A DNA stretch of 64,000 nucleotides, taken from positions 1 through 64,000 of the forward strand of contig JAFAWQ010000052.1 of assembly GCA_019241645.1 (NCBI GenBank), written 5' to 3'. The notes beneath the pieces are model-generated. The model saw nothing but the letters and a program-made list of their open reading frames with translations. It searched no databases and was not told where the DNA came from. This document shows, in pieces, positions 12,274 to 24,329 of the stretch. Source of the DNA: Alphaproteobacteria bacterium. GTDB taxonomy: Bacteria; Pseudomonadota; Alphaproteobacteria; Micropepsales; Micropepsaceae. The translations under genes were made by a program, and so were the position numbers. Position 1 is the stretch's first letter. The number at the start of each line of letters is the position of its first letter.

Positions 12274-13686
12274 TCAGGGTCCATTCCTCCGTTCGGCTGC
12301 CTTGGCCGTGTCATCGGCTGAGGCAGCCCAGCCACCGCCGAGACTCTGATAGAGCTGAATGGTCGCGGTAAGCCGGTCCGCGTGGGTTTGAACGAGCGAA
12401 AGCTGCGCCGACAGCAATTGTCGTTGTGCATCAAGCTGATCGAGATACGGCGAATAGCCCGCGCGATAGCGGTTTCGCGCCAACTTCAGCGCATGTGCGA
12501 GAACCTCGCGTTGGGCCTCGAGCGTCTTTTCTTGTTCGGCAAGCCGCTGCACGGCGGCGAGAGCATCTTGAACTTCACGAAACGCCGTGAGCGCCGTCTT
12601 GCGATACACGAATGCCGCCTGATCGCGCCGGGCCGTCGCAGCGTCCTGCTGCGCCTCCAGTCGTCCGGCGGTGAAAATTGGCGCAAGTATGCTTGCACCC
12701 AGGGACCAAATTAATAGCGGACTGCTGGGGATCAACGTAGAACCCACATAACCGCCGGAGGCCGCCAGTTGGATGTCCGGCATGAATGCGTCGCGAGCAG
12801 CATTGAGCGCATGATCTGTCGCGGCAAGCTGCTGTTCCGCGGACGCAATGTCGGGCCTGCGGCTTAGCAACGAAGCGGGCACCGAAACCGGGATTGAAGG
12901 CACTGCGAATCCGTCAAAATGCCTGTTGCGCTCGATACCGCGCGGGTTCTCGCCCAAAAGCACGCTCAGACCATCCTCCTGTTTCGTCACGGCGAGCTCG
13001 GTTGCCGGGATGAGCTGCCGCGTGGCCTGGTAGGCGGCATCGGCCTGCGCGAGGTCGAGCTGGCTGGAATAGCCAACCTGCGCCCGATGCCGCGCAACGC
13101 GGAGCTCCTCCTCGCGTGCCTTCAAAGTGTCGCGCAGCACCGCAAGACGCGCATCGAGCGAACAGAGGGTGATGTACCCTGAGGCTGCGGAGGCGGCGAC
13201 GGCAAGACGCACATTGTCTCGTGCCGCTTCCGTTGCCAGTAGATTGGCACGTGCTGCCTCACTCGAATCTTTCAGCCGTCCGAACAGATCGAGGTCGTAT
13301 GAAATTCCGCCTTCCGCCTGCCAGGCTGATTGGAGTTCGGGAATACCGAACCCCGGATTGATCGTGCGTTCGCGCGCCCCCTCGCCGCCGATGGCGATGT
13401 TCGGCCACAGCTGCGCGCGCGCGAGACGGAATTGCGCCCGCGCCTCAGCCACGCGACCGGCCGCGATGGCGATATCGTCGTTGTGTTGCAGGGCCGCTTC
13501 CACGATCTGCGCGAGCACTTGGTCGTTGAAGGACCGCCACCACTGTGCGTCCACCGCGTCGTCCCTCGCCGCTGCCGCGCCGCGCCAGGCGGAAGGGGGC
13601 GTCACGGCGGCTTCCGGCGGAACCGGCGCCTTCGACCCAGCGCAGCCGGCAAGCAAAAGCGATATCAACACAAGAAGGCGTTTCAT
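12274..13686 (-). CDS. NodT/OprM-like outer-membrane efflux lipoprotein
   Basis: Outer-membrane channel (470 aa) of a tripartite pump, TolC/OprM superfamily. A lipoprotein signal peptide ends in the lipobox LLAGC with the acylated Cys at residue 15. Two repeated outer-membrane-efflux domains make the body, with long alpha-helical stretches (AGRVAEARAQFRLARAQ near 80, and its C-terminal counterpart) and the family ending near LYQSLGGGW. Its start overlaps the stop of the HlyD gene by 4 nt (ATGA), so it is translated with the pump. It is the last gene of the 11-gene minus-strand operon. Confidence 0.92.
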   Translation of the reverse strand: MKRLLVLISLLLAGCAGSKAPVPPEAAVTPPSAWRGAAAARDDAVDAQWWRSFNDQVLAQIVEAALQHNDDIAIAAGRVAEARAQFRLARAQLWPNIAIGGEGARERTINPGFGIPELQSAWQAEGGISYDLDLFGRLKDSSEAARANLLATEAARDNVRLAVAASAASGYITLCSLDARLAVLRDTLKAREEELRVARHRAQVGYSSQLDLAQADAAYQATRQLIPATELAVTKQEDGLSVLLGENPRGIERNRHFDGFAVPSIPVSVPASLLSRRPDIASAEQQLAATDHALNAARDAFMPDIQLAASGGYVGSTLIPSSPLLIWSLGASILAPIFTAGRLEAQQDAATARRDQAAFVYRKTALTAFREVQDALAAVQRLAEQEKTLEAQREVLAHALKLARNRYRAGYSPYLDQLDAQRQLLSAQLSLVQTHADRLTATIQLYQSLGGGWAASADDTAKAAERRNGP

Positions 13687-14741
13687 GGTCCGCCGCTTGT
13701 CTGAACGTGTGTGATGACCGACATCCCGGGACGAAGCCGCGCTATGGCGGATTGTCCCCCGTTGATCGCGATGCGAACACCGATGCGTTGCGGCACCTTG
13801 ACGAAATTCCCCGTGCCGTTGTCGGGTTTGATCACCGCGAATTCCGAACCCGCCGCGGGGGACAGCTGCTCTACACGGCCGTCGAACCGGGTTCCATCAA
13901 AGGCATCGACAGTGAATGTGACCGGTTGGCCGACGGCCATGTGCGCCGTTTGCGATTCCTTGTAGTTGGCGATGACCCAGCGCTCGGCCGGCACCAGGGA
14001 CATCATCTGCGTTCCATTCGTCACGTACTGGCCCAGCCGCACACCGATTTCACCCAGTTGTCCGGACTCCGGCGCGCGCACGACCGCGTGCCCAAGATCG
14101 ATCAGCGCGGAATCAAGCTGTGCCTTGGCGGCGGCGACCTGCGCGACGAGCCCTCCCTTTCCTACATCCACAGTCCGGATGTTTTGCTGCGCAACGTCCA
14201 CGGCCGCTTGCGCCTGAATGAGGGCCGCCTTGGTCTGGTCGCGCTCCCGGACCGACACCGAGCCGTCTCCCACCAGATCCTTGACGCGTGCCATATCCGC
14301 CTTTGCGCGCACCAGCGCCGCGGCCTGCCCCGCCAGCGATGCGACTCCCGAGGCGCGCGCCTGTCTGTTGTTCGCAAGCGCTGCCTCCGCTGCGGCAAGA
14401 TTGGCCTGCGACTGTTCCACGCGCGCGCGGTAGGTGCTGTCGTCGATGCGCGCCAATATCTCGCCCGCGTGAACTTGCGCATAATCATTCACCGGAACGG
14501 CGACCACATAACCGCTGACCTGCGGTGCGATCACGGTGGTTCGCCCCCGAACGTAGGCGTTGTCCGTCGTTTCGATGCCGCCGCCGAAGGGTGGCAGATC
14601 GAATGCCCACAGGATCGCCAGAATGCCAATAAGCGCGACCGCGCCAATGGCCGCGATCGACCACGGACCGCGGGCGGGCGGATGCCAAGTCTGTCTTGGC
14701 GGCGGCAGGACGGCCGTTTCATCCCGTACCGGCGCGCTCAT
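13683..14741 (-). CDS. EmrA/HlyD-type membrane fusion protein
   Basis: Periplasmic adaptor (352 aa) that joins the MFS pump to the outer-membrane channel. One N-terminal membrane helix at about residues 27-46; then the lipoyl-like half-motif (TTDNAYVRGRTTVIAPQVSG), a coiled-coil hairpin of about 110 residues rich in Ala, Gln and Arg, the second lipoyl half (VVRAPESGQLGE) and a beta-barrel domain. The ATG at 14741 is chosen because it overlaps the MFS stop by 4 nt and starts the family-length protein; the same frame stays open far upstream inside the MFS gene, which is a shadow. Confidence 0.92.
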   Translation of the reverse strand: MSAPVRDETAVLPPPRQTWHPPARGPWSIAAIGAVALIGILAILWAFDLPPFGGGIETTDNAYVRGRTTVIAPQVSGYVVAVPVNDYAQVHAGEILARIDDSTYRARVEQSQANLAAAEAALANNRQARASGVASLAGQAAALVRAKADMARVKDLVGDGSVSVRERDQTKAALIQAQAAVDVAQQNIRTVDVGKGGLVAQVAAAKAQLDSALIDLGHAVVRAPESGQLGEIGVRLGQYVTNGTQMMSLVPAERWVIANYKESQTAHMAVGQPVTFTVDAFDGTRFDGRVEQLSPAAGSEFAVIKPDNGTGNFVKVPQRIGVRIAINGGQSAIARLRPGMSVITHVQTSGGP

Positions 14742-16366
14742 GTCGCGACTTCGGCGTTGAGTCTCGATCGCCTGGCATCCGCGACGATCATCCATGCCAG
14801 CCATCCGGCCGTGGCCAAAGATGCCCACATCACCAGACGAAACACGTCGTCGAACGCCAGGGTGCTCGCTTCTGCCGTCAACGAGCGACCCAGGCGGCCC
14901 GTCCCCTGCGCGGCCCGCAATGCCGGATCGGTAAGGGTACCCGAGACCGCCCCGACTCCTTGTTGAATGCGTGCCACAACCTGCGGGTCGGAGGCCAGAA
15001 TATGCTCGCCCAGCGAAGCGGCATGCGCTCTTGTATAGACAACCTGTGCCGTTCCCAGGATAGCCGAGCCGGCGAGTCCGCCCACATTCTGGGTCATGCT
15101 GAAAACGACGATCAGGCTGACCAGATGCGTCGGGCCCTGCCTCAGCATTTGCAGAAATCCATACGCCAATGCAGGTCCGATGAAGAGCGTGGTGCCGAAG
15201 CCGATCAGCGATTGACTGAGATAGAGCTCGTGCGGCCTGGTGATGCTGGTCGAGCGACTGTCCAGAAACGCCGCAAGAGCGATAATGAGCGAGGCCGCCA
15301 ATACCTGGTAAGGCGGACTCTTCAGCGACATCGTCGCGCAAGCCACGACGATTCCCAGCACCACGGAAAGCGCCACGTAACCGAACAGGGTGTGGAGCTG
15401 ATCGTTTGTAAGCCCACCCGAGGTAAGGAAGCCCACCGATCCGTATGTCTGCTCGGCGAGGGCAAGGCGCACCAATAACGAGATGAGGAAGAAGCGCACA
15501 ATCTCGCCCTTGCCGATCCAGTCCGTATAGAGCAACGGACGGCCGCGAACCCGTTCCACGGCGATGGCGGCAGCGCACATGGCGACAGCGGCAACCAAAG
15601 CCCAACCCAGCCAGTCGCGATCCGTCCACCACAGCAGGCGTCCCTCCCCAAGGACGATGCAGAACAGGAGAAACGCGTGAACCATGAGGCCGATCGTGAT
15701 CAGGTCGCTGCCTTCGAACGCAGGGGTGTGATCAGTCGGCGGAAGCGGCACGGCGAAGATGGCTGCACTGACGAGCAAGCCCACGCCAAGCTCGATCAGC
15801 GACAGGCCGTGCCAGCTATCGGTGGCAATGACGTCCAGCGGAACAAGGCGGGCAAGCGGCGTGCCCAGCTGCACCACGCCGATCCCGATGACCAGCGCAA
15901 GTGGGCGAGCTCGGGGCGGAAGCGTCTGGAGAAAGTAGAAGACCGTGAGCGTCGTCAACCCGGCCGCCATCAGGCCGCAAGCGGCGCGCGTTGCGATCGC
16001 CGTGGCGTAACATGGAAACACGAGCTGGAGGAAAGCAGCCAGCGCATACAGGCCCATGAGCGCCTGCGTGAGATGGGGAATGCCAAATCGCGTGCGAGCC
16101 CGCACCAGCGATAGGTTCCCTGTTGCATTCATGGCGATGTAGATCGCCGGCAGCGCGCTCACCTGCGCCAGCGTAAGATTGAGCGAGCCGGCAAGATTGC
16201 CGGCGTTTACGTTGACGAGCGCGTTCGTGAAGGTGGTGCAGGCGCCGATCAGGATACCGACGCCGGCATAGGCAATGCGGCGCCGGTTGGAATGCACCGG
16301 CGTGTAGGGCGATCCAGGGAATTGGGGCCGCTCGTTTGGCGCGAACTCATATGCCGCTGCGCTCAC
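14738..16366 (-). CDS. DHA2-family MFS efflux transporter, EmrB-like
   Basis: Inner-membrane proton-driven exporter (542 aa) of the 14-helix DHA2 type, with many hydrophobic segments from about residue 30 to 525. It lies directly before a HlyD adaptor and an outer-membrane factor, the EmrAB-TolC-like arrangement. Its ATG overlaps the Dyp peroxidase stop by 4 nt, so pump synthesis is coupled to the peroxidase. The long loop near the C-terminus (around 450-500) is typical of EmrB proteins. The substrate is probably a product or substrate of the peroxidase pathway; this is inferred from the coupling only. Confidence 0.9.
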   Translation of the reverse strand: MSAAAYEFAPNERPQFPGSPYTPVHSNRRRIAYAGVGILIGACTTFTNALVNVNAGNLAGSLNLTLAQVSALPAIYIAMNATGNLSLVRARTRFGIPHLTQALMGLYALAAFLQLVFPCYATAIATRAACGLMAAGLTTLTVFYFLQTLPPRARPLALVIGIGVVQLGTPLARLVPLDVIATDSWHGLSLIELGVGLLVSAAIFAVPLPPTDHTPAFEGSDLITIGLMVHAFLLFCIVLGEGRLLWWTDRDWLGWALVAAVAMCAAAIAVERVRGRPLLYTDWIGKGEIVRFFLISLLVRLALAEQTYGSVGFLTSGGLTNDQLHTLFGYVALSVVLGIVVACATMSLKSPPYQVLAASLIIALAAFLDSRSTSITRPHELYLSQSLIGFGTTLFIGPALAYGFLQMLRQGPTHLVSLIVVFSMTQNVGGLAGSAILGTAQVVYTRAHAASLGEHILASDPQVVARIQQGVGAVSGTLTDPALRAAQGTGRLGRSLTAEASTLAFDDVFRLVMWASLATAGWLAWMIVADARRSRLNAEVAT

Positions 16367-17697
16367 ATCTGGAACTCGCCGAGCCAGCGCAAGGCCGACA
16401 AACTCGGCATGAAAAAGTATTCGCCGCCGCGAAGCACATTGAAGGTTTCGATACCGTGAACGCGGCGCCGGACCGGTTCCTTTGGAATGGTGAAATATGC
16501 ACCTTCCTCCTGACGGCCGATAATTGGATCGCGCTCCTCCCCTAGGCCGATGAAGTTACCCTCGTCGATCCATTCCTGTTGGAGGAATTCCATCGTCGCC
16601 ATCGCCTTGGCGCTGATGAACAGAAAGATGGCCCCGCGCTCCACATTGTCGGCGTCTTCGGACAATTCATTCGGATCGTAGGGTTTTCCATAGGTCGTGC
16701 CGCGCCGGATGAGTCGATGAATGTTCACATCGGTCAGCCGGGTGAGTTGCGTGTCGCGCGGGTTCATGCGCCGGATATGGCAACCGAACGGCGCCCTGCG
16801 ACCGTGGGTGTCGCCGGCATAGTTGAAATCGTTGTTGCGGTGCGGATCAGCGCCGAGCGCCGGATCGTCGGCGTCAGGTGCCAGGGTCAGCGGCGCGCCG
16901 CTGCGCCACCGGCCGACCAGTTTTGCTGCAACGAACTCCCGTTCGTCTTCGGTCTTTCCGTTGGCATGGAGGAAGCGGTTGAATGCGCCGACCCGCGATT
17001 GATACTTGCGGAAGCCCACATAGGTGCCGTTGCGACCGAGGATGTCCGGCTGCGGCATCGGCAGCGGCACGCCGGTCTCGCCTGGATAGCCAAGGATGAA
17101 TTCGCCGGCCTTGATCGGGTTGCCCTGGCCCGGCAGCGGGTCGACCCCGACGCCCTCCATCGCGGGCTGGTCAATACCGTCCTTGTAGCCCAGCGAATTG
17201 CGGTCACCCGGCTGCATGCCGAAATCCTGCACGGCCAACACCCGGACGCCATGCAAATCACGCAACTGCTCACGCGCCATCTCAACAATGCGCTGCCATT
17301 TCTCCATGGAGTCGCTAAACGCATTCAGCCCGATATGCGCTTCACCGTTTCCGAACAGCGGCTCCCAGTTTTTTGGGTCGTTGACGCCCTCGTCCCTCAA
17401 TTCCCTGGCGCGGGCTGCCATGCCCACGCGAAACGCTTCGGGAAAGCTCTGCAGCGATTCCGCCGGAAGGCCGAGGGCCTTGAAACCCGCATAGCTGATC
17501 GCAACCGAAATCCAGGCATCTGCGGGCTTCCACCAGTTCGCCGCCGAATCGACATGGGGCGCCAGCCGGCGGAGAAACTCATGGCCCGCTTTTGCATCGT
17601 CAACGCGGAACAGCACGTGGGAGCCATAGTACGGCGCCGGCCTTAGCCGGAGCACGGTCGCCTGTATTTCATGCAGTTCAACCTTAGGCGGACTCAT
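16363..17697 (-). CDS. Dyp-type (dye-decolorizing) haem peroxidase
   Basis: Haem peroxidase (444 aa) of the long class C/V type. The catalytic GxxDG motif is GYKDG at 170-174 with Asp173 as the distal acid. The proximal haem ligand is expected at His307 in the conserved HIRRMNPRD block. RRGTTYG at about 331-337 and the C-terminal FFMPSLSALRW segment also fit the family. No signal peptide, so it acts in the cytoplasm unless it is cargo of something not seen here. The start at 17697 gives family length and lies 11 nt after the upstream paralogue stop. It is coupled to the efflux genes by a 4-nt overlap. Confidence 0.93.
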   Translation of the reverse strand: MSPPKVELHEIQATVLRLRPAPYYGSHVLFRVDDAKAGHEFLRRLAPHVDSAANWWKPADAWISVAISYAGFKALGLPAESLQSFPEAFRVGMAARARELRDEGVNDPKNWEPLFGNGEAHIGLNAFSDSMEKWQRIVEMAREQLRDLHGVRVLAVQDFGMQPGDRNSLGYKDGIDQPAMEGVGVDPLPGQGNPIKAGEFILGYPGETGVPLPMPQPDILGRNGTYVGFRKYQSRVGAFNRFLHANGKTEDEREFVAAKLVGRWRSGAPLTLAPDADDPALGADPHRNNDFNYAGDTHGRRAPFGCHIRRMNPRDTQLTRLTDVNIHRLIRRGTTYGKPYDPNELSEDADNVERGAIFLFISAKAMATMEFLQQEWIDEGNFIGLGEERDPIIGRQEEGAYFTIPKEPVRRRVHGIETFNVLRGGEYFFMPSLSALRWLGEFQM

Positions 17698-17708
17698 CGC
17701 AACGCCCG

Positions 17709-18311
17709 CTATCCAATCTTGTCGAGGAACTCGTCGACAGCCGCACCGATTTTCTCGAGCCGCTTCGTTTCGGCGACCGTGAGATTGGGGGAAGCGACAT
17801 ACCAGGCATCGGCAGTGAGCTGATGACTGACGATCCAATCCTTGATTTTTGGACTGCTGATCCCCGGCCATCCCGCGCAATTGCAGAACAGGATGTCCAT
17901 CGATGTCGGAATCTTCGTCGCGAAGTCGTCGATGTACGTATCCCATTCACCGTCATAGGCTGTGCAGAAGAGAAGCTTGGTATCGTTCTCCAGCAGCACA
18001 AAGCGCATGTCATGCAAGGTGCCGACGATATCGGCGCCCTTGAAGTTTCCTCCCAGCAAATCCAGCAGGCCGCGAATGCGCTTGCCGCCGCCCGGCTCCA
18101 GCGGAATGATCGCGGTCAGTTCGGACACCTTGCCCTGGCGCGCGCCGATACGGCCCGCGCTTTCGCGCTGCATTGCGGCGGCAAGTTCGCGCGCCAGTCC
18201 CTCTTCGACCCCTTTCTTCAGGGCGACCCTGCCGATTTCCGGCGCATCCGCATAAAGCTCCTGCACCTTCCTAAGTTTTTCTTCGACTTGAATTTGTTCT
18301 TGCGTCGTCAT
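17709..18311 (-). CDS. Dyp-associated paralogue 3 (~200 aa orphan family)
   Basis: Third of three tandem paralogues (200 aa). Shared blocks are RIGARQGKVSELT (about 54-66), PLEPGGGKRIRGLL, VGTLHDMRFVLLENDTKLLF, TAYDGEWDTYIDDFATKIP, WYVASPNLTVAE and the ending AVDEFLDKIG. An alternating beta/alpha pattern with a conserved His-x-MRFV strand and YDG turn suggests a ferredoxin-like fold of the Dyp/EfeB/chlorite-dismutase type, but this is inference from pattern. It sits 9 nt after paralogue 2 and 11 nt before the Dyp gene. Unlike the other two it has a cysteine pair (FCNCAGWPG) in the variable loop. Function unknown. Confidence 0.85.
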   Translation of the reverse strand: MTTQEQIQVEEKLRKVQELYADAPEIGRVALKKGVEEGLARELAAAMQRESAGRIGARQGKVSELTAIIPLEPGGGKRIRGLLDLLGGNFKGADIVGTLHDMRFVLLENDTKLLFCTAYDGEWDTYIDDFATKIPTSMDILFCNCAGWPGISSPKIKDWIVSHQLTADAWYVASPNLTVAETKRLEKIGAAVDEFLDKIG

Positions 18312-18320
18312 GTCGTCCGC

Positions 18321-18932
18321 CTAGCCAATCTTGTCGAGGAATTCGTCCACGGCCGTGCCGACCTTTTCGAGCCGTCGGGTCTCGGCGGCGGTCAGGTTTG
18401 GGCTGTTGACGTACCAGGCTTCGGCGGCAATTTGGTGCGCGGCGATCCAGTCCGCCGCCGCCTTCGGGTTTCGCATTCCTGGGTAACCCTCAAAATTGCA
18501 CAGCCACAGATCCATAGCGTTCGGAATCTTCGCCGCGAAGTCCTCGATGTAGGGGTCAAAGTCGCCGTCATATGCGGTCGCGAAGAGTATCTTCGTATCG
18601 TCATCCACGAACACGAAGCGCATGTCGTGCACTGTGCCTACGGCGTCGGCAGCCTTGAAGTTGCCTTCCAATAGCTCCAGAAATCCACGCAGCCGCTTCG
18701 CTCCGCCTGGCACGAACGGAAGAAACACGGTGAGCTCCGAGACCTTGCCCTGACGGGCGCCGATGCGGCCGGCTGTTTGGGCGTGCCCCGGCGCTGCCAG
18801 TTCCTTGGTGAGCATGGCGAGCCCGTTCTTCAGCGCGGCTTTGCCTATTTCAGGCGCGTCGGCGTAGAGCTCCCGCAGCTTCTGAAGTTTCTGCTCCGCG
18901 GTCATGTTGGTTTTCGCTTCATTCGTGGTCAT
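18321..18932 (-). CDS. Dyp-associated paralogue 2 (~200 aa orphan family)
   Basis: Second tandem paralogue (203 aa). It keeps the common blocks: YADAPEIGKAALKNG near the N-terminus, RIGARQGKVSELT, PGGAKRLRGFLELLEGN, VGTVHDMRFVFVDDDT, TAYDGDFDPYIEDF, WYVNSPNLTAAE and AVDEFLDKIG. A strong AAGGAGGGG ribosome site precedes the ATG. The spacing and near-identical C-terminal ten residues show an origin by tandem duplication. No catalytic motif could be named. Confidence 0.85.
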   Translation of the reverse strand: MTTNEAKTNMTAEQKLQKLRELYADAPEIGKAALKNGLAMLTKELAAPGHAQTAGRIGARQGKVSELTVFLPFVPGGAKRLRGFLELLEGNFKAADAVGTVHDMRFVFVDDDTKILFATAYDGDFDPYIEDFAAKIPNAMDLWLCNFEGYPGMRNPKAAADWIAAHQIAAEAWYVNSPNLTAAETRRLEKVGTAVDEFLDKIG

Positions 18933-18971
18933 GCCTGCCTTCCCCTCCTTTTTAGATGGTGTGCTATTCGC

Positions 18972-19592
18972 TCAGCCGATCTTGTCCAGGAATTCGTCGA
19001 CGGCCTTGGCGATGCGCTGGTTCCGTAGAATTTCCGCTACCGTTAGATCGGGATAAGCGACGTACCAGCCTTCTGCCGTGATCTGGTGACTGGCGAGGTA
19101 GTCTTTCGCGCCGGGGCTGCGGATGCCAGGCCAGCCGTCCCACGCAGAGTCGATGATGTCGAGGTAATCGGGAATCTTGGCGACGAAGTCGTCGATGTAG
19201 GTGTCCCAATCGCCGTCATAGGCTGTCGCGAAGAGCAGCCGCGTGTCGTTGTCGAAGAACACGAAGCGCATGGTGTGGAGCGTGCCCACCAAATTCGCAC
19301 CCTGCGAGAGATTGCCACCCAAAATTCGCAGGAACGCCCGCAATCGCTTTGCGCCGCCGGGTGCCAGTGGAACGATGATCGTCAGCTCGGAAACCTTGCC
19401 GAGGCGCGCGCCGACGCGGCCGGCGCTTCCAATCGGCGGCGGCGGATCCGAGGCCTGCGACTTCAGCGTGTTGATCGAGTTTTCCAGCGCCTGCTTGCCA
19501 ATCTCCGGCGCGTCGGCGAACAGCTCCCGGAACTGCCGGATCTTGGCGTGAATGTCCGAAGAAGGGTCCGATCCGGTGTTGAGTGTCGCCAT
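18972..19592 (-). CDS. Dyp-associated paralogue 1 (~200 aa orphan family)
   Basis: First tandem paralogue (206 aa). It has FADAPEIGKQALEN, RVGARLGKVSELT, PGGAKRLRAFLRILGGN, VGTLHTMRFVFFDNDT, TAYDGDWDTYIDDFVAKIP, WYVAYPDLTVAE and AVDEFLDKIG. It differs from its sisters by a short proline run (DPPPPIG) before the core. The ATG at 19592 is supported by a GGGAG site about 7 nt upstream; the frame stays open further upstream but only as a shadow of the TPR gene. It starts 13 nt after the TPR protein stop. Confidence 0.85.
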   Translation of the reverse strand: MATLNTGSDPSSDIHAKIRQFRELFADAPEIGKQALENSINTLKSQASDPPPPIGSAGRVGARLGKVSELTIIVPLAPGGAKRLRAFLRILGGNLSQGANLVGTLHTMRFVFFDNDTRLLFATAYDGDWDTYIDDFVAKIPDYLDIIDSAWDGWPGIRSPGAKDYLASHQITAEGWYVAYPDLTVAEILRNQRIAKAVDEFLDKIG

Positions 19593-19605: not shown

Positions 19606-20703
19606 TCACATTGGATTTGGTTGAGCGGCCAACTCTTTGGCGCTTTCGTACCGGTCGCTGCGTCTCGTCCGGTCAAGACCCTTCGCGATCCTGTCCATCT
19701 GGGTGATCGCGCGCCGTGTCGGACGATTGGCGGCATTTGTGCGTGCAAGCTCAAGTGCCAGCTCCGGGTCGTTCCCATCATCGGCGTAGAATTCGGCGGC
19801 ATGGTCCGCGAAAGCGAGCCGGTGTTTCGCCAGCAGGCTTTCGAAGCCTGAGCGAGCGGCCTTTCGCTGTATCTCGGCCTCTTCGAAGCGCCCCTGCGCG
19901 ATGCGCACGCCAGCGAGACGCCATCGCACTTCGGGATCGCAGCTGGATAACGCCGACAGCAGCAGCGCCTCCGCATCGGAGAGTTGGTCCTCGCTTGCGT
20001 AGATTTCTGCGAGGTGGACGCGCGCCCTCACATAGCCCGGCAGGTAGGCAATCGCGCGTTGATACCAGCGTTCTGCGAGTCTCAGATCGGGCTCGGGCAC
20101 GAGTTCTCCCCACAGCATGCCGAGCTGAAAACAAACCCACGCCAGCGGAAACGGCGAGGTACCGTCGTACGACGAAAAAGCCTTCCGATAGACCGCATCC
20201 GCCTCGGCGAACCGCTCGAGATCGGCGAACAGGGCGCCGAGCGGCACGAGCTCCTCGATCTTTCCGCTTTCCGCGGCGAAGCGGCAGCGCCCGTCCAGCA
20301 CATCGTCGAGTTGCAGGCCACATGCCTGGTTGACGGCCAACAACCGCCGCTCGATGTCGATGCACGGCGCGCCCAACCGCGCCGCAGCTGAAAGGTGAGT
20401 TCTGGCGTCGCGGAAGCGGTGCGCCGACGACGCGACCTCCGCTTCCAAAAGGGGGGCGCGAAACGATTCATCCGCATGAGCAAATTGCCGGGCCAGCATC
20501 TCCAGGCGATCGAGCGCGGTCAGATCGCCAAGGAACTGCGCGACCATGCGCTCCAGATCGACAAGCGACTCCGCGACGCGCGGCGCGCCGGAGTCTTGCG
20601 TAAAGCATGCCCATGCGCGCCGGCGCGTGCTTTCCAGATTGATCGCGGCAATCTGTCCGTCAGTGACAGTCCGACCGTCGCCAAGGTCCAATGCGGTGCT
20701 CAC
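19606..20703 (-). CDS. TPR-like helical repeat protein
   Basis: Soluble helical protein (365 aa). From about residue 60 it shows repeating pairs of helices with TPR-like spacing of Ala, Gly and Leu (for example ALFADLERFAEADAVYRKAF, AERWYQRAIAYLPGYVRARVHLAEIYASEDQLSDAEALLLSAL). It is likely a binding scaffold. The GTG at 20703 is chosen because its GTGA overlaps the HupE stop by 4 nt; the open frame upstream lies wholly inside the HupE gene. Its place between HupE and the paralogues suggests it organises partners of this pathway, which is inference. Confidence 0.75.
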   Translation of the reverse strand: MSTALDLGDGRTVTDGQIAAINLESTRRRAWACFTQDSGAPRVAESLVDLERMVAQFLGDLTALDRLEMLARQFAHADESFRAPLLEAEVASSAHRFRDARTHLSAAARLGAPCIDIERRLLAVNQACGLQLDDVLDGRCRFAAESGKIEELVPLGALFADLERFAEADAVYRKAFSSYDGTSPFPLAWVCFQLGMLWGELVPEPDLRLAERWYQRAIAYLPGYVRARVHLAEIYASEDQLSDAEALLLSALSSCDPEVRWRLAGVRIAQGRFEEAEIQRKAARSGFESLLAKHRLAFADHAAEFYADDGNDPELALELARTNAANRPTRRAITQMDRIAKGLDRTRRSDRYESAKELAAQPNPM

Positions 20704-21293
20704 GGCGACACAAGAAAGGCGACGCCAGCCAACGCCATGGCGGACCCGCTGATCTGAAGAATTCTGCGACTGTACGCCTTGCCTGCCCTGGCAATCGCCA
20801 GACCCAAACCAATGCCAATCCCGTGAAGCAGCGCGGTGGCGAAGACAAATCCAAGGCCGTAGGTTAAACCGGACACGCTGGCCGGCATTTCCGCGCCATG
20901 TACGTGGCCATGAAAGATGGCGAAGAATCCCACGGCGGCCATCGCAGCCAGCGTCGGGACGCTGACCTGCAACGCCACAGCCATTCCCAGCACGATGATC
21001 GACAGGCCGATACCGATTTCCGCGAATGGCAAACGCACGCCCGCCATACCCGCCAAGCCGGCAACCGCCATGATCGAAACAAATGTCAGCGGTACGAGCC
21101 ACAGAGCCCGTCCGCCCAAATGGGCAGCGAACATGCCGACGGCAACCATTGCCAGAACATGGTCGACGCCGCTCAACGGGTGCGCGAAGCCATGCACGAA
21201 TCCGTGCGTACCGCCAATACCCACATGGGCCGATGCGGACACCGGCATGAATACGAGCGCCGCGATGCACACTCTGAGAATGGACCGCATCAT
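20700..21293 (-). CDS. HupE/UreJ-like membrane protein
   Basis: Polytopic inner-membrane protein (197 aa) with a cleavable-looking N-terminus (ending ASA, about residue 22) and about six helices. The His-rich opening (GGTHGFVHGFAHPLSGVDH) and the later FHGHVHGAEMP motif are the HupE/UreJ signature; relatives carry Ni or Co, or help metalloenzymes. No hydrogenase or urease gene is in the window, so its metal role here is open. The stop overlaps the TPR gene start by 4 nt; the aldehyde dehydrogenase is 37 nt upstream. Confidence 0.88.
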   Translation of the reverse strand: MMRSILRVCIAALVFMPVSASAHVGIGGTHGFVHGFAHPLSGVDHVLAMVAVGMFAAHLGGRALWLVPLTFVSIMAVAGLAGMAGVRLPFAEIGIGLSIIVLGMAVALQVSVPTLAAMAAVGFFAIFHGHVHGAEMPASVSGLTYGLGFVFATALLHGIGIGLGLAIARAGKAYSRRILQISGSAMALAGVAFLVSP

Positions 21294-21330: not shown

Positions 21331-22734
21331 TCACGGGCGGCCCCCCGAAACGGCGTCGCTCATTTCCGCCGCAACACGGATCAGCTTCTTGTTGACGAAC
21401 TCGCCGATGCCGAGATGCGACAGTTCGCGGCCGTATCCGGAATTCTTCACTCCGCCGAACGGAAGCTCCGGAGACGTACCGGTCGCCCGGTTTATGAAGA
21501 TCATCCCGGATTCGATCCGGCGCGCGACGCGCTTGCCGCGTTCGACGTCTTTGGTGATCACGCTTCCGCCCAATCCGAAAGGCGAATCGTTGGCCACGCC
21601 GACCGCCTCGTCTTCATTCTTCACCCGGAAGAACATGGCGACCGGCGCGAAGAATTCGAGATGAAAAGCCGGATTGTCCGGCCTTACATCGGTGAGAATG
21701 GTGGGCGCGAGAAAGAACCCGCGCCGGTCGAGCCGCTTTCCGCCCAGCAACACATTGGCGCCGCCCTTGATCGCGATGTCGATCTGCTTCAGCGCATTGT
21801 TAAGGGCGGCCTCCGTGCAAAGAGGAGCCAGCGAGGTTCCGGGATCCATTGGATCGCCGGGCTTCAGTTTCTCGACCTCACTCTTGACCCGGGTGAGGAA
21901 CGCATCGGCGATGCCTTCCAGAACAATGAAGCGCTTCGCCGAGATGCAGGATTGGCCGGAATTGCGCATGCGCCCGTTGACCGCCCATTTCACCGCGGTC
22001 TCGAGGTCCGCATCGTCCAGCACGATGAAGGGATCGCTGCCGCCAAGCTCCATGGTGCTTTTTTTCAGCGCCTGACCTGCCTCGGAAGCCACCGCCGCCC
22101 CTGCCCGCTCGCTGCCGGTCAGCGCCACGCCCCTGATCCGGCTGTCGGCGATGACCTTCGCCGCCTGCTCATTGGTCAGAAAGACATTCGTCCAGACGCC
22201 CGCAGGGGCGCCGGCATCGAGAAACAGCCTCTCGAATGCCAGCGCGCATTGCGGCACATTCGGCGCGTGCTTGCAGATGACTGTGTTGCCGATCATGAGA
22301 TTCGGCGCAGCCACGCGCACCAGCTGATAATAGGGAAAATTCCACGGCTCGACGCAGAACAGCACGCCCAGCGGTGCGGTCTCGATGAATGCCTCGCCGT
22401 CTTTCACATCGATTTTCTCGGGAGCGAGGAAGTTCTCAGCGTTGTCCGCGAAGTAGTCGAGGATATCCGCGCACAGGCTGAGTTCGGACCGCCCCTCACG
22501 GAGCAACTTGCCCATTTCCAGCGTGCTGTATCCGGCGAACTCCTCGATCCTCTCGCGCAGAATGGACGCCGCTTTTTTCACCACGGTCTTGCGTGCCGCG
22601 GGCGATCTCTTGCTCCAGTCGGCCTTGTACGTCTCGTCCGCTTTGGCGACGATCGCTTCGGCTTCGCTATCGCTGTGCAGGTCGAATGTTCGGACAAGCT
22701 CTTCGGTGTAAGGGTTGATCGTCTGGTATTGCAT
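21331..22734 (-). CDS. NAD(P)-dependent aldehyde dehydrogenase, succinate-semialdehyde type
   Basis: Oxidises an aldehyde to its acid (467 aa, normal length). Catalytic Cys263 lies in GQSCISAKR and general-base Glu229 in MELGGSDP; PWNFPYYQ at 130-137 is the cofactor-domain signature, and FGGVKNSGYGREL closes the protein. The closest match by eye is the GabD/Sad succinate-semialdehyde group, but the true substrate is unknown. A GGAG site lies 7 nt before the ATG. In this operon it would remove a reactive aldehyde made upstream, which is inference. Confidence 0.88.
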   Translation of the reverse strand: MQYQTINPYTEELVRTFDLHSDSEAEAIVAKADETYKADWSKRSPAARKTVVKKAASILRERIEEFAGYSTLEMGKLLREGRSELSLCADILDYFADNAENFLAPEKIDVKDGEAFIETAPLGVLFCVEPWNFPYYQLVRVAAPNLMIGNTVICKHAPNVPQCALAFERLFLDAGAPAGVWTNVFLTNEQAAKVIADSRIRGVALTGSERAGAAVASEAGQALKKSTMELGGSDPFIVLDDADLETAVKWAVNGRMRNSGQSCISAKRFIVLEGIADAFLTRVKSEVEKLKPGDPMDPGTSLAPLCTEAALNNALKQIDIAIKGGANVLLGGKRLDRRGFFLAPTILTDVRPDNPAFHLEFFAPVAMFFRVKNEDEAVGVANDSPFGLGGSVITKDVERGKRVARRIESGMIFINRATGTSPELPFGGVKNSGYGRELSHLGIGEFVNKKLIRVAAEMSDAVSGGRP

Positions 22735-22760: not shown

Positions 22761-24329
22761 TTACGGTCGCACTGGTTCTCGATCGGTGCCGAAGCGGGAT
22801 TTCAGGCTTCCGAGACCGCTCTCGATAAGTCCGGTGACCATGTCCCTGACCCGGATGTCGGGGAGTCCGTCTGCCAGAAATTGAACCCGCCAGGCGGCGA
22901 CGCAGCCGGCGCCGCGCGGTCTCACATCGATCGTTCCCGCGTAGTCGGAGGCGGGAATCCCGGCGACCATCGAGTAGCGATAGATGCGCTTCGCCTCATC
23001 GACCTCGTCGAGGCGCTCGACAATGGTGCGGCCGTCTCCTGTCTCTATGCGGCGGAGCTGACCGGTTCCGGAGCCGATCAGCGCGACCTTCGCGACATGG
23101 GGATGCCAGCTGAGGTCGAACTGTCCGATCAGTGACCACACCGCCTCCGGCGCGGACGCGAGCTCGACGGAATCGGCGACGCACTGCACTTCGCTGTTCG
23201 GCGACGCGAAGTATGGAAAGACATTCGTGCCGGGCTTTGTCGCGCCGGTCGCTCCACCCCGCAGGAATTCGCGATCGCGGTTTATGAGCCAGGTGAGCAG
23301 GATGTCGATCACGTTGGCATTGATGGTGCGGCCGCCGCCGGTCCGGTAGGGCACGCCGTTCAGTGTGCTTTTCTCGATTTCGAGATGACTATCGTCCGTG
23401 ATCGGTTTGGCGATGTCGAACAGAAGAAAATCGTCGAGGAAGACGCGGGCATTGGCGGCGCGCGCTTCCGACGTCCAGTCGGCCTTGCCGTCGCGCATGT
23501 CCCAGTCGGCGAAGCTGGCATTCAGACGCTTGAGGAACAGAGGCTGGAGGTCCGGCGAGATCGCGAACGGCTTCTGCTGATTCCACAGGTCGCGGATGTC
23601 GTCGACGCCCTGCAGTCCGGGATTGTTCAGACGAATGTTCGTCTGCTCGGGCTTTCCCACCCAATCGATACGCGCGACAGGGTGGCCGATGCGCCCCGGC
23701 GGTTCGCGCGGGACCGTCTCGCCGATCGCGCCGAACAATGTGCCGGCGGCGGAATCGAGCATGCACTTTGTGTCGAACTCGACGACCAGGCACAACACGT
23801 TGTCGTGCTGCAGCAGGTTCGGCACCTTCTCGAGTGTGGCGGCGATCACGGCCAGATAGAAGGGGTCGGAGCGCAACCCCGCGAACACGCGCGGATCGCC
23901 TTCCGGCGCCGTCGCGCCCCCTTCCTCATTCACGGTGAGTTGAAGTTTGCGGCCGTCCGGCAGCACGCAAACACCGCGCTGGACGATTCTGCCCTCTGCG
24001 TCCCGTTGGAGAGCCCCGAAACGGAACACGAAGCGGATCTCGTCCTCTGATGGTGAAAACTTCGCCGCATTGCCGCTGCCGTCTACCGTAACCCGGCGAA
24101 GGGCAATGGTGTAGTCGATGACGTTCGAGAACACGGCGCTAACGCCGGCCGATGGAAAAACGCACATGGCGAGAACCGTGCGCGCCGGGTCTGCCGGACT
24201 TGTAAATGCGAAGAGATCCGTCACATCGGCTGGCGGATCGCCGATCGAGCGCGGACCGTCAACGTGATCGGACACGTTGATACCTCCAGAGGTTTCCGTC
24301 TGGCGAACACGGACAATGGGCTCCGCCAT
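22761..24329 (-). CDS. DUF4331-SRPBCC fusion protein
   Basis: Two-domain protein of 522 aa. Residues ~18-370 match the DUF4331 pattern (DHVDGPRSIGDPPADVTDLFAF at the start, then FDTKCMLD and DDFLLFDIAKPI), a family of unknown function usually found alone and secreted. Here there is no signal peptide. Residues ~378-515 form an SRPBCC/polyketide-cyclase-like domain (SVELASAPEAVWSLIGQFD, WHPHVAKV, YAGTIDVRPRG), a fold with a deep hydrophobic ligand pocket. It is the first gene of the 11-gene operon. A 37-bp element shared with the other unit lies 60 nt upstream. Confidence 0.8.
   Translation of the reverse strand: MAEPIVRVRQTETSGGINVSDHVDGPRSIGDPPADVTDLFAFTSPADPARTVLAMCVFPSAGVSAVFSNVIDYTIALRRVTVDGSGNAAKFSPSEDEIRFVFRFGALQRDAEGRIVQRGVCVLPDGRKLQLTVNEEGGATAPEGDPRVFAGLRSDPFYLAVIAATLEKVPNLLQHDNVLCLVVEFDTKCMLDSAAGTLFGAIGETVPREPPGRIGHPVARIDWVGKPEQTNIRLNNPGLQGVDDIRDLWNQQKPFAISPDLQPLFLKRLNASFADWDMRDGKADWTSEARAANARVFLDDFLLFDIAKPITDDSHLEIEKSTLNGVPYRTGGGRTINANVIDILLTWLINRDREFLRGGATGATKPGTNVFPYFASPNSEVQCVADSVELASAPEAVWSLIGQFDLSWHPHVAKVALIGSGTGQLRRIETGDGRTIVERLDEVDEAKRIYRYSMVAGIPASDYAGTIDVRPRGAGCVAAWRVQFLADGLPDIRVRDMVTGLIESGLGSLKSRFGTDREPVRP

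Follow-up and report, generated by a model that had tools for sequence, protein, structure and literature searches.

Why would a bacterium keep three related small genes directly beside the gene for a DyP-type peroxidase? This arrangement was found in the window, a stretch of 64,000 nucleotides of one contig (JAFAWQ010000052.1) from an alphaproteobacterium of the Micropepsaceae. Three tandem, co-directional open reading frames on the minus strand, P0001, P0002 and P0003, encode proteins of 200, 203 and 206 aa, and the DyP gene, P0004, lies 11 bp downstream of P0001. The features of this gene run are as follows.

16363-17697, minus strand: P0004, class V DyP-type peroxidase (444 aa), 61% identical to DrDyP of D. 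radiodurans.
17709-18311, minus strand: P0001, family member (200 aa) adjoining the DyP, with a predicted alpha+beta-barrel domain at about residues 58-174.
18321-18932, minus strand: P0002, family member (203 aa).
18972-19592, minus strand: P0003, family member (206 aa), transcribed first of the three.
19606-20682 (start approximate), minus strand: TPR protein, relatives of which adjoin the family/DyP pair in other genomes.
20713-21293, same run: gene for a HupE/UreJ-type membrane protein, flanked by the genes for the TPR protein and the aldehyde dehydrogenase.
21331-22734, minus strand: aldehyde dehydrogenase of the same run, a relative of which is also upstream of the family/DyP pair at locus L010.
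22761-24329, minus strand: DUF4331 + SRPBCC protein (Polyketide_cyc2, lipid-binding type), with relatives near the family/DyP pair at 10 loci.

Inspection by eye also identified genes resembling an outer-membrane factor, an HlyD-type adaptor and a 14-TM transporter on the same strand just downstream of the DyP (12274-16366), possibly for efflux.

Alignment of the three open reading frames confirmed the original prediction that the proteins share several blocks (VSELT, H-x-MRFV, TAYDG and YI-D/E-DF) and an identical AVDEFLDKIG end, all of which fall within about 90 columns that are invariant across P0001-P0003. The copies are 58-65% identical, the other two sharing 65% and 58% identity with P0001, and the gaps between the genes are 9 and 39 bp. 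E values from tblastn comparison of the three ranged from 1e-71 to 1e-133, so their similarity is not due to chance, and the same program found no further copy in the 2.87-Mb assembly. The Cys pair (C-N-C) expected in one copy was present in P0001, which is third in the order of transcription and adjacent to the DyP. It is not a conserved feature, however, as other residues mostly occupy these sites elsewhere in the family.

The family is widespread yet undescribed. Searches of Pfam, NCBIfam, PHROGs and PADLOC returned only sub-threshold chance matches, PDB sequence searches with one protein or with a 47-row profile gave no credible match, and relatives in plasmid records are labelled 'hypothetical protein'. 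The proteins were thus correctly described as being of unknown function, as no confident match to a known enzyme family was obtained in the libraries searched. Homologues with 44-79% identity occur in several phyla, indicating that the P0001-P0003 frames are real genes. A scan of GTDB genomes identified 131 places encoding family members, the best 80 of which are in the Alpha- and Gammaproteobacteria, Acidobacteriota, Chloroflexota, Actinomycetota and Bacteroidota; plasmid records added members from the Deinococcota, and the family is present in at least five phyla. Its distribution is patchy, with even a remote relative in just one other genome among the 36 of the window's genus. Near-identical cassettes, often >90%, were seen at loci L021-L043 and in plasmid records such as L095. 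Their hosts are Sphingobium, Novosphingobium, Brevundimonas, Shinella and Pseudoroseomonas, and their cargo includes genes for oleate hydratase, 3-hydroxyacyl-CoA dehydrogenase, thioesterase, TetR and a P-type ATPase. We take these cassettes as a sign of recent transfer, and their occurrence on sphingomonad contigs and plasmids, together with the patchy distribution, fits horizontal spread.

The family is tied to one DyP subfamily, as adjacent genes or within one polypeptide, across phyla. At the retrieved loci a P0004-like DyP was encoded downstream on the same strand for 82 of 85 family open reading frames, with a median gap of 43 bp; the other three comprised one in frame with a DyP, one with a broken DyP and one (L071) without a DyP. 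As the set of retrieved loci was potentially biased, whole-genome samples were taken. Every family-positive genome was also DyP-positive in the samples of Pseudomonadota (21/21, with 29 of 397 genomes DyP-positive overall), Actinomycetota (6/6, with 11 of 296 DyP-positive overall) and relatives (3/3 in 61 genomes). The corresponding hypergeometric P values were 1e-28, 5e-10 and 3e-5. In the two phylum samples the coordinates placed the family matches at most about 1.4 kb from the DyP match or within the same open frame. When sensitive profiles were applied to the eight apparent exceptions among the DyP-positive Pseudomonadota, a family domain was found at the DyP locus in five of them, bringing the total to 26 of 29 genomes. 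A search of the window's own genome with the DyP_N model gave no match, which is uninformative as its controls were also silent. The co-occurrence expected by the original prediction is therefore strict, and it is very probable that the family and the DyP act in the same pathway.

Natural fusions lend further support to a partnership with the peroxidase. Several genomes contain a single frame of 1408-1530 aa that encodes a P450, TM-like segments, a family domain and a DyP, and in one of these P450-family-DyP fusions the P450 is followed by a second, weakly matching family-like domain. Elsewhere, DyP neighbours of 435-708 aa contain a pair of family domains with TM-like segments between them. 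The dimeric alpha+beta-barrel superfamily has both single- and two-domain versions, the barrel being built from two halves (PMC4835899), and the recurrence of two family domains per system is as expected for such a fold. An in-frame family-DyP reading frame at L015 was not counted as a true fusion, as its DyP is frameshifted. Two of the P450-partner-DyP fusions (L124:10199-11980 and L126:2453-4114) adjoin a large TPR-containing protein that by eye looks like a cyclase- or SARP-type regulator. The three fused P450s that we inspected have G-F-x-P-T at the I helix, with Pro in place of the acid. P450s that activate O2 usually carry an I-helix acid. Fungal linoleate diol synthase and PpoA are dioxygenase-P450 fusions, and in these, as in the bacterial proteins, a radical-forming haem peroxidase and a P450 are joined in one polypeptide. 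The bacterial peroxidase differs in being a DyP, which is unrelated to the fungal one, and the bacterial P450 comes first.

We modelled the family protein with AlphaFold2 using 47 sequences (pLDDT 95.2, pTM 0.83). Foldseek E values were only about 0.01, yet the matches were consistently ABM-type and IsdG-type dimeric alpha+beta barrels, and the best VIA-align score was a Z of 7.9 over 95 residues within residues 60-173, all Z values being <8. Both lists were dominated by the dimeric alpha+beta-barrel superfamily, with moderate scores that speak to fold level only. ABM monooxygenases, polyketide cyclases and mutarotases were the best structural neighbours, and IsdG, IsdI and MhuD were also matched. 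A dimeric alpha+beta-barrel (ABM/IsdG-like, ferredoxin-like) fold is therefore a reasonable assignment of middling strength for the predicted domain, which spans about residues 58-174. Family proteins differ from the superfamily in their extra N-terminal helices, long C-terminal helix and tie to a DyP gene, and they have no sequence match to any family within it; the ABM monooxygenase model PF03992 did not match them at E values up to 1. The original prediction of the ferredoxin-like fold common to DyP, EfeB and chlorite dismutase (Cld) thus held at the level of the superfamily. A specific link to DyP or Cld was not seen: the nearest structures are of the ABM, IsdG and mutarotase type, and neither DyP nor Cld was among the matches listed. 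Profile comparison (hhalign) of the family with an alignment of P0004 and 126 DyPs detected no sequence homology (probability 0.2%, E value 0.38). P0001-P0003 lack the GXXDG motif, and no His is among the columns that are invariant in 47 family sequences.

The same structural neighbours raise the possibility that the family proteins are enzymes themselves, i.e. ABM-type cofactor-free oxygenases or isomerases that make or rearrange a (hydro)peroxide for the DyP, with H100, R103, W123, Y126 and D129 as the active site. R103, Y126 and D129 are invariant in the 47 sequences, and H100, Y119, D120 and W123 are nearly so, the His being missing in one remote member. This fold is common, however, the Z values stayed <8, no such enzyme was matched by sequence, and the strict tie to DyP and the fusions fit a partner role equally well or better. 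We consider an enzymatic role unlikely.

Returning to the partner role, we asked how the three copies relate to each other. In a maximum-likelihood tree they fell into three separate groups with support of 100/99, 100/100 and 99/99, and each group also contained proteins from other phyla or from other alphaproteobacterial MAGs. At loci L004, L005 and L019 the leading copy is P0003-like, and the one adjoining the DyP belongs to the P0001/P0002 group. By this phylogeny the three copies are old paralogues from three old clades, kept in order, rather than recent duplicates, which suggests distinct roles. They are probably a heteromeric set of specialised paralogues. Most loci have a single family copy and other lineages have two family domains in one protein, so a hetero-oligomer, as was originally suggested, is not a requirement of the system; three substrates, the other original suggestion, are likewise only a possibility.

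P0004 is a DyP by its GXXDG distal Asp, proximal His and distal Arg and by its 61% identity to a DyP of solved structure. Its GYKDG motif is at positions 170-174, and D173, H307 and R331 are kept in 126/126 relatives. Among the closest known systems is DrDyP (DR_A0145), a plasmid-encoded class V DyP of D. radiodurans that matches PDB 8re2/8re3 and, as in the window, has a family member directly upstream, the hypothetical protein WP_051618841.1. The window differs in having three partner copies and no catalase-like gene that we could find (a search without a positive control). DrDyP also has Met at the fifth GXXDG position, where P0004 has Gly. Ser occupies this position in 59 of the 126 DyPs and Gly in 64, indicating that the site varies and that the Met, which was reported to be unusual, is one substitution among several. 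DrDyP purified alone is reported to have a six-coordinate low-spin haem and to be inactive at pH 7.5 (PMC10820274). Its authors ask what activates the enzyme and suggest that other or interacting proteins may govern activity (PMC10820274). In the portion of the DrDyP literature consulted, we found no discussion of the family gene directly upstream.

The next gene downstream of DrDyP encodes a catalase family protein, which by gene order is DR_A0146. Across loci such third components were mutually exclusive, no locus containing two: within 6 kb on the same strand, a catalase-like gene was present at 73 loci, a P450 gene at 11 and a DUF4331-SRPBCC gene at 10, with none of the three at another 15, although redundancy among the loci means that these are not independent counts. 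Against Pfam Catalase, the catalase-like proteins score below the cut-off. The module of the window is of the DUF4331-SRPBCC type, its run also including the aldehyde dehydrogenase and the TPR protein, and no match to the catalase-like protein P0005 was found in its genome (the search lacking a positive control). Two-domain DUF4331 + SRPBCC proteins were seen beside the family/DyP pair in several phyla, where they replace the catalase-like or P450 gene. Annotated cassettes, some on plasmids, also carry genes for oleate hydratase, 3-hydroxyacyl-CoA dehydrogenase, acyl-CoA thioesterase and a TetR regulator, and such lipid genes are missing from many family/DyP loci. A literature search joining DyP with oleate hydratase, oxylipins or P450 fusions returned nothing relevant. 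Some DyPs have another dedicated partner gene, that for encapsulin. The family partner is not a capsid protein, and we rejected an encapsulin cargo partnership because no shell gene (PF04454) was found in the window's assembly, where the controls were positive.

The catalase-like neighbour is in keeping with a general peroxide-defence operon in which the DyP would remove H2O2 and the small proteins would serve as accessories under stress, and DR_A0145 and DR_A0146 are both reported to rise under UVC/vacuum stress (PMC5731708). This reading is improbable given the recurrence of lipid-metabolism genes, the reported inactivity of DrDyP at neutral pH (PMC10820274) and the reported lack of catalase activity of DR_A0146 (PMC7247583). 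An IsdG/MhuD-like carrier or insertion factor that supplies haem to the DyP, and to the neighbouring catalase-like protein or P450, would account for the IsdG, IsdI and MhuD matches, the nearly invariant His and the haem proteins that make up most third components, but is the least likely reading, as recombinant DrDyP reportedly loads haem without the family protein (PMC10820274), the window-type module has a DUF4331-SRPBCC protein and no second haem enzyme, and one remote member does without the His.

The best explanation for these results is that the family is an obligate partner subunit in a DyP module for the oxidation of unsaturated lipids, where it probably presents the substrate or activates the enzyme. 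That the three proteins are small alpha+beta-barrel partner subunits of one class V DyP subfamily is likely, and a physical complex with the DyP, which we infer, has a better than even chance. In a single-chain AlphaFold2 model of partner plus DyP, derived from an Acidobacteria in-frame read-through with shallow pairing and an artificial linker, pTM was 0.68, confidence in the small domain was lowered and no confident docking was obtained. Family members would form homo- or heterodimers, each a barrel with a pocket for a hydrophobic substrate. The partner might then dock on the DyP and either present the substrate or switch the low-spin haem to an active state. The chemistry, one-electron or peroxide, would be that of the DyP, and its oxidized product would be rearranged or carried by the third component. 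The likeliest substrate would be an unsaturated lipid or its hydroperoxide, because the neighbouring genes encode oleate hydratase, 3-hydroxyacyl-CoA dehydrogenase, acyl-CoA thioesterase, SRPBCC and aldehyde dehydrogenase; that the substrate is a lipid at all is an even call. We put forward only tentatively the wider proposal that the family provides a large DyP subfamily with its missing activating subunit, and that the module of DyP, partner and P450 or catalase-like protein is a bacterial oxylipin synthase that arose independently of its fungal and animal dioxygenase-P450 counterparts.

It is an open question what DyP peroxidases act on in nature, and DrDyP on its own has been reported to be inactive at neutral pH (PMC10820274). 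What the genomes indicate is a small, specific partner encoded directly upstream of the DyP, plus a third component that is catalase-like or a P450; this suggests that this kind of DyP, one member of which is seemingly inactive when purified alone, has been studied without its natural partner. If so, co-expression would reveal whether the native assembly of this DyP subfamily is active, and on what, and the genes described here would constitute a broad and as yet unnamed module of bacterial haem enzymes that oxidizes lipids.
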